Source: Aquibaculum arenosum
GTDB taxonomy: Bacteria > Pseudomonadota > Alphaproteobacteria > Kiloniellales > DSM-21159
NCBI RefSeq assembly: GCF_029222965.1
Contig: NZ_JARHUD010000009.1
Span: 1-64,000, forward strand
Reading direction: 5' to 3'
DNA: 64,000 nucleotides
In this document: piece by piece, positions 51,598 to 53,447 of the stretch
How positions within the stretch are numbered: the stretch's first letter is position 1
Layout of the letters: each line of letters opens with the position of its first letter
Position numbers and translations under genes: made by a program
The notes under the pieces: generated by a model
What the model was told of the DNA's origin: nothing
The model's database searches: none
Seen by the model: only the letters and a program-made list of their open reading frames with translations

Positions 51598-52530
51598 GTG
51601 AGCGATTTCGGCGGCAATCCCGGTGGCGGGGCCTGGGGCGGTGGTCTGTGGGGCGATCCTTGGGTTGTGGTGCGCCGCTCCCGTCGGCGCAGCGAGGCCG
51701 AGCGCTATGCCCTGGTGCTGGCCGCCATGGGCATCACCAGCCGGCTGCATCGCGACGGTGAATGGATCACACTTTCGGTCGCGCCACACCACGCCGCATC
51801 CGCTGAGCGCGAGATTGGGGCCTATGTGAAGGAGAACAGCCACCAGACCCCGGCTGCGCCCACCATCCGTCCCGGTCGCGAGGCCTTGCTGGGAGTGCTG
51901 GCCTACGCCTGCGTGCTCTTCTTCCTGCACGGCGCGGCCTTGCGCGATGCCTTTGGCCTGGACTGGCTGTCTGCGGGCGCGGCGCAGGCGGGCTTGATCC
52001 TGGATGGGCAGCTTTGGCGCACGGCGACGGCCCTGGGGCTTCACGGAGATGGCACGCACCTCCTGGGCAATCTGGCGCTGGGCGGCTTCTTCGGCTTCCT
52101 GCTCGCACAGCTGTTGGGCGGGGGGCTGGCCTGGCTGGCGATATTGGTGAGCGGTGCTGTGGGCAATCTGCTGGCGGCGGTTTTGCGGTCCAATGAGCAG
52201 ACCTCCATCGGCGCCTCCACCGCAGTCTTTGCCGCGCTGGGTCTGCTTTGTGCCCTGTCCTGGCGGCACCAGGCACCGGCGCGCTTCCGCGGCCTGCGCC
52301 GCTGGCTGCCCTTTGCCGCGGGCGCCATGCTGCTGGCCTACCTGGGTGTCGGTGGGGAGCGCACCGATGTGCTGGCGCACGTCACCGGCTTCGCCGCGGG
52401 TGCCGGCGGAGGCTTCCTTCTGGCCCAGATCGGCCCGCGCGTTCCCTTGGGCAGCGCAGCACAACTCGCCTATGCCCTGGCGGCCGTGCTGCTCTTTACA
52501 CTGGCTTGGCTGATCGCCCTGGCTGTCTGA
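51598..52530 (+). CDS. Rhomboid-family intramembrane serine protease
   Basis: This 310-residue membrane protease has a cytosolic N-terminal ~90 residues containing a short alpha-beta region (SEAERYALVLAAMGITSRLH). Six to seven hydrophobic segments follow. Rhomboid landmarks are DGTHLLGNLALGGFFG (H-x-x-x-N), the nucleophile in TSIGASTAVFAALG (G-x-S) and the catalytic His in TDVLAHVTGFAAG. The dyad is therefore intact. The GTG start has AAAGGGG upstream. Natural substrates are unknown. It is a stand-alone rightward gene. Confidence 0.9.
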   Translation: MSDFGGNPGGGAWGGGLWGDPWVVVRRSRRRSEAERYALVLAAMGITSRLHRDGEWITLSVAPHHAASAEREIGAYVKENSHQTPAAPTIRPGREALLGVLAYACVLFFLHGAALRDAFGLDWLSAGAAQAGLILDGQLWRTATALGLHGDGTHLLGNLALGGFFGFLLAQLLGGGLAWLAILVSGAVGNLLAAVLRSNEQTSIGASTAVFAALGLLCALSWRHQAPARFRGLRRWLPFAAGAMLLAYLGVGGERTDVLAHVTGFAAGAGGGFLLAQIGPRVPLGSAAQLAYALAAVLLFTLAWLIALAV

Positions 52531-52536
52531 CCGGAA

Positions 52537-52926
52537 TCAGGAGGCTGCTTCGACCACGGCGCAGGCGATGCGGTCGCCGGCTCCGCCAATGTTGGGCAGA
52601 TCACCGTGATCGGGGCCGTCGGGATTGAGCAGCCCGTGCGGGCGCTCCTCGGGGTTGATGTGGCTCCCGGAAGCCTGGAAGCCCTCGTCGTGATCCTCGC
52701 AGGTGCCATTGGCATGCAGGTGCAGGCCGTGCGGCCCCGCCGGCAGGCCTTCGATTTGCAGCTGGATCAGCACACCCCTGGGCCCTTCCGTCAGCCGGGC
52801 CTCGCCGATCTCTTCTCTCTCACGGTCGATGAAACGGGCACTGGCCTCCTCGGCGGCCACGGCGGCAGCAGAAGGCAGCGTCAGAGCGGGAACCGCCCCG
52901 CAGGCGGCAAAAACGGTCGTTCGCAT
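52537..52926 (-). CDS. sodC: Periplasmic Cu/Zn superoxide dismutase-like protein with internal deletion
   Basis: This is a 129-residue protein with a signal peptide (N-terminal TTVFAACGAVPALTLP, cleavage near AVAAEE). The first part matches SodC: HGLHLHANGTCEDHD (two Cu His), SGSHINPEERPHGLLNP (bridging His, Zn His) and DHGDLPNI (Zn His and Asp). Family proteins then have ~45-50 residues containing the final beta-strands, the loop and the fourth Cu ligand (V-I/V-H-A/E). Here GDLPNI passes straight to GGAGDRIACAVVEAAS, which supplies the active-site Arg and second disulfide Cys. One copper ligand is therefore missing in frame. GGGAGAA supports the chosen ATG. Dismutase activity is doubtful. 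Confidence 0.82.
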   Translation of the reverse strand: MRTTVFAACGAVPALTLPSAAAVAAEEASARFIDREREEIGEARLTEGPRGVLIQLQIEGLPAGPHGLHLHANGTCEDHDEGFQASGSHINPEERPHGLLNPDGPDHGDLPNIGGAGDRIACAVVEAAS

Positions 52927-53043
52927 AGTCGGTTCTCCCTGTCTTCTCATGCGGCATACAGGCCGCGTCGGTCAGGAGTTACCGGGCAAACGACACGGAA
53001 GGGAAGTGGGTTCCGAACTTGGAACCGGTAGTGCGGTGGAGGT

Positions 53044-53076
53044 GGCCTCCAGCAGCTTGATCGACTGCCGGAGGCC
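53044..53076 (-). terminator. Hairpin downstream of ridA
   Basis: GGCCTCC-A-GCAG pairs with CTGC-C-GGAGGCC around a 9-base loop, 20 bases past the RidA stop on the minus strand. It may separate ridA from the sodC-like gene. Confidence 0.5.
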
Positions 53077-53096
53077 GTTTCCGACTCCGGTCGCGA

Positions 53097-53447
53097 TTAC
53101 TTCGCCGCAATCACCATGATCTCGACGGTGAACTTGGGCGCTGCCAGGCGCGACTCGACGCAGGCGCGGGCCGGGGCGTTGCCTTCGGCGACCCAGGCGT
53201 CCCAGACCTCGTTCATCTCGTTGAAGCTGCTGATCTCGGAGAGCCAGATCTGCGCCGACAGCAAGCGGGTCTTGTCGGTCCCCGCCTCTGCCAGCAGTCG
53301 ATCGATGTTTTCCAGGATCTCCTGAGTCTGCTCGGCTACGGACTTGCCGGCGTTCTGATGCGCGACCTGGCCGGCGAGATAGACGGTGTTGTCGTGTACG
53401 ACGGCCTGGCTCATGCGCTTGCCGACCTCGATGCGTTCGATGCTCAT
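53097..53447 (-). CDS. RidA/YjgF-family protein
   Basis: This 116-residue trimeric protein belongs to the Rid superfamily, related to enamine/imine deaminases. The N-terminus RMSQAVVHDNTVYLAGQVA and end NAPARACVESRLAAPKFTVE contain the conserved Arg that binds substrate carboxylate in RidA; the Glu follows in FTVEIMVIAA. Family members hydrolyse 2-aminoacrylate-type intermediates, but this sequence is closer to the Rid4-7 subgroups of less certain role. GGAGGAA precedes the ATG. It lies 35 bases downstream of an SDR gene on the same strand. Confidence 0.88.
   Translation of the reverse strand: MSIERIEVGKRMSQAVVHDNTVYLAGQVAHQNAGKSVAEQTQEILENIDRLLAEAGTDKTRLLSAQIWLSEISSFNEMNEVWDAWVAEGNAPARACVESRLAAPKFTVEIMVIAAK

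Follow-up and report, generated by a model that had tools for sequence, protein, structure and literature searches.

A sodC-like gene of Aquibaculum arenosum with an in-frame internal deletion, probably an inactivated accessory copy

The window analysed here, a stretch of 64,000 nucleotides from Aquibaculum arenosum (contig NZ_JARHUD010000009.1, positions 1 to 64,000), contains a gene of the Cu/Zn superoxide dismutase (SodC) family that lacks about 150 bases of its interior. The gene is probably an accessory periplasmic sodC that was recently inactivated, its function lost through this one in-frame deletion. The original prediction had left three options for the gene: a decayed enzyme, a metal-binding (Zn/Cu) chaperone-like derivative or a minimal superoxide dismutase (SOD). 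The reading of the gene as a SodC with a deletion stands, and the decayed enzyme is the best-fitting of the three; a minimal SOD is not supported, as four predicted strands and a copper ligand have gone. We are probably dealing with a spare copy that has recently broken down, rather than with a novel type of enzyme. As it stands, a spare enzyme gene broken once, in one genome, is of little importance. The more interesting observation is a change in the third zinc ligand that is shared by the clade to which the gene belongs.

The gene and its deletion

The features of the locus are as follows.

52537..52926, minus strand: sodC-like open reading frame with an internal deletion, 129 aa, with a Pfam Sod_Cu match
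52933..52940, minus strand: ribosome-binding site AGGGAGAA, 6 bases 5' of the ATG, identified from the sequence
52849..52926, minus strand: signal-peptide-like N-terminus, approximately residues 1–26, read by eye
52577..52605, minus strand: deletion junction GDLPNI^GGAG, from the alignment of about 65 homologues, a codon-level comparison and a junction-pattern scan

The reading frame is uninterrupted from 52926 to 52537. The clean frame and good ribosome site that had been proposed for this gene were both borne out, and the N-terminus does resemble a signal peptide. A scan for σ70 promoters found nothing. The protein, labelled P0001, matches Pfam Sod_Cu (PF00080) with an E-value of 1.7e-16 and a score of 61.3 bits against a cut-off of 28.9. 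This homology extends over residues 41–113 of the protein and over positions 3–75 only of the 133 in the profile.

Beyond GDLPNI the protein jumps straight to GGAGDRIACAVV. What follows PNI113, GGAGDRIACAVVEAAS, is the last SodC strand, carrying the active-site Arg and the second Cys. Comparison with about 65 aligned homologues, also at the codon level, shows that full-length relatives have 49–50 residues between PNI113 and GGAG, in agreement with the omission of some 45–50 residues first noticed here. The fourth copper His lies within this gap, as had been predicted. The loss had also been thought to include the final strands; strands are indeed lost, but from the middle of the barrel, and the last of them (GDRIACAVV) is retained. 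The missing segment was sought elsewhere in the genome and in the window and was not found, which rules out its relocation. The deletion is genuine in the assembly. As for its origin, inspection of the junction showed no obvious long direct repeat. The edges of the gap in the relatives appear at the codon level to have only about 3 bases (ATY) in common, a weak indication, and there is no close intact copy from which to fix the exact break.

Three of the four copper-binding His residues are kept (H69, H71 and the bridging H89), as are the active-site Arg119 and the disulfide Cys residues C76 and C122, all as originally described. The zinc site is another matter. In PaSOD-1 of Paenibacillus lautus (PDB 8IMD) the zinc ligands are H185, H193, H202 and D205 (PMC10432803). 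Alignment to this protein places H89, H97, Asp106 and D109 at the corresponding positions, so the site is not one of three His and one Asp. The statement that all zinc ligands are kept is therefore wrong, since the equivalent of H202 is Asp106 and the neighbouring H107 is offset by one position in the alignment. No His that could compensate for the lost copper ligand appears in the protein. H107 was considered for this role and rejected: full-length relatives in the clade carry its equivalent too (GPDHGD), and it is thus no response to the deletion.

Distribution of the deletion and predicted folds

Orthologues with the same deletion, which would have made a family of the short form, were looked for in the genus (2 genomes), the family (12), the order (63), a class sample (385), a phylum sample (399), one scan of genome contigs, and plasmids. 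No relative has it in any of these, and the approximately 65 homologues that were aligned are full length. A degenerate pattern of the junction, run against the 385 class genomes, matched in the genome of the window alone. The nearest relatives, which include sequences from Halomonas, Billgrantia and gammaproteobacterial metagenome-assembled genomes (MAGs), are 46–54% identical to the window protein.

Compared with these full-length bacterial Cu/Zn SodC proteins (PF00080), the window protein shares what appear from its sequence to be secretion, the HxH motif, the bridging His, both Cys and the active-site Arg. It differs in being without the 49–50 internal residues, one copper His and four predicted strands. 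The latter were counted on an AlphaFold2 model of the full-length relative L026, which has nine strands and the SOD fold (pLDDT 70.7, pTM 0.68). Mapped on this model, the gap covers the strands at 113–115, 121–127, 138–140 and 147–152, that is, 4 of 9, and on these predictions the deletion takes away roughly half of the folded barrel. The model of P0001 itself has three strands, far from a complete eight-stranded Greek-key barrel, with pLDDT 54.5, pTM 0.40 and pLDDT below 50 from residue 73 onward; the alignments behind the two models were near-equal and shallow (7 and 8 rows), so this low confidence is suggestive, and supports rather than proves the loss of fold. Foldseek against the PDB gave 249 matches at E≤0.001 for L026, the best being the SOD-like 1xtm, and no match at E≤0.001 for P0001.

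Inactivated gene or retained protein

The favoured reading supposes that one internal deletion of about 150 bases struck an accessory periplasmic SodC gene without disturbing its frame. The product, if made, would be exported. The shortened chain would be unable to close its β-barrel, would have no useful SOD activity and would be degraded. Against intact relatives, a loss of 49–50 residues through the fold is a disabling lesion of the kind expected in a pseudogene.

Loss of the gene would be tolerated if, as we infer, the other SODs of the genome remain in service. A second and intact sodC, which the original prediction had proposed to look for, is indeed present: it encodes 168 aa, lies at G000:C28:86510 (G000 being the genome of the window, a draft of 29 contigs, and C28 the contig) and falls in a different clade from the window gene. 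The genome also has one Fe/Mn SOD. The window gene is flanked by rhomboid and RidA genes. The one further genome of the genus that was compared, G001, has only some 55 bases between these two genes and no sodC there (window 52530–53097 against L071), which makes the gene variable within the genus.

Over a region of about 1 kb that includes the intact sodC, the two genomes share 95.9% identity (L001 1188–2200, L014 2049–1035), compared with only about 70% in the surroundings of the window gene. The high identity around the intact copy hints at recent transfer or strong conservation.

What speaks against inactivation is the good condition of everything that is left. The frame and ribosome site are intact, the gene keeps the expected residue at each of the 22 alignment columns whose conservation in the clade is 90% or more, and the branch leading to the gene is of ordinary length (0.26 against a median of 0.25). 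An old pseudogene would look different. There is no sign of relaxed constraint on the remaining gene, and inactivation fits as a recent event only. This lack of decay would mean that the deletion is recent, that the product is still under selection or that the assembly is in error. Because about one random deletion in three keeps the frame, the clean frame by itself is weak evidence for function. We infer a recent deletion, because nothing else in the gene has decayed.

Could the gene of the organism be full length, with about 150 bases dropped in the draft? The undecayed remainder would suit such an assembly or sequencing loss, and the deletion is known from a single assembly. However, the deletion leaves the frame exactly intact, the locus is well within a contig and the junction has no long repeat, only the shared ATY, and we consider the explanation unlikely. 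Similarly improbable is a retained derivative, in which the protein would be a short secreted binder of Zn or Cu, through H69, H71, H89 and H97, serving as a metal buffer or chaperone. A signal-peptide-like start, a ribosome site, three copper His and both Cys are all present, and the conserved positions are without substitutions, which speaks for this reading. Yet the deletion occurs in no relative, the bridging His and the loop residues fall where pLDDT is below 50, and the third zinc His is an Asp. Nothing, neither a relative with the deletion nor a compensating His, supports the chaperone-like derivative suggested at the outset. There is only a slim chance that the short protein has been selected as a small secreted metal binder built from half a SodC barrel, with one copper ligand and the catalytic loop gone. 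If the protein were stable and metal-loaded, this would suggest that half a SodC barrel is reusable, for which no precedent was found. A minimal yet active superoxide dismutase is very improbable. It would have Arg119, three of the four copper His and both Cys at its disposal, but it lacks the fourth copper His and the electrostatic loop along with four predicted strands, and no SOD fold is predicted for P0001.

A clade with a mostly acidic third zinc position

In a tree of 66 SodC rows, the window gene included, this gene falls in a supported clade of 40 rows (99/96). The third zinc position in the clade is Asp in 25 rows, Glu in 10, His in 4 and Tyr in 1 (L005), and is thus acidic in 35 of 40. 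All 20 scorable rows outside the clade have His there, six distant rows having misfitted the pattern used. The change of ligand is ancestral to the 40-sequence clade, and the deletion is not its cause. Members of the clade include the window gene (52537–52926), L004, L024, L026–L032 and L035–L046.

Two known systems resemble these proteins in part. Fungal-type Cu-only SODs have, as E110/D113, an acidic residue where the third zinc His would be and an Asp three residues further on; D106/D109 of the window protein has the same arrangement, which most of the clade shares, in a comparison based on residue spacing and a review. Unlike the fungal type, the intact relatives in the bacterial clade still have their second zinc His and their electrostatic loop. 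A further difference of the window gene is the loss of part of the barrel, and through its deletion it has neither the full barrel nor the intact copper site of a Cu-only SOD. Bacillus subtilis YojM (PDB 1S4I) is SOD-like with two copper ligands missing, according to the citation of Banci 2005 in PMC10432803. It too is a prokaryotic SodC relative with an incomplete copper site, and is the best structural match of L026. YojM, however, keeps the whole barrel and has lost its ligands by substitution, whereas the window gene lost its ligand by deletion.

An intact bacterial SodC clade with mostly Asp or Glu as third zinc ligand is worth more than the deletion: its members are candidate Cu-only or altered-Zn bacterial SODs, open to direct assay. 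One further member of the family, the full-length paralogue L005 (G011:C58:2679–3011), has Gln at the fourth copper His (ALVVQE) and at the second zinc His (GQG), in addition to the Tyr at the third zinc position. Judged by these residues, it is likely a non-catalytic SOD-like protein, reminiscent of YojM.
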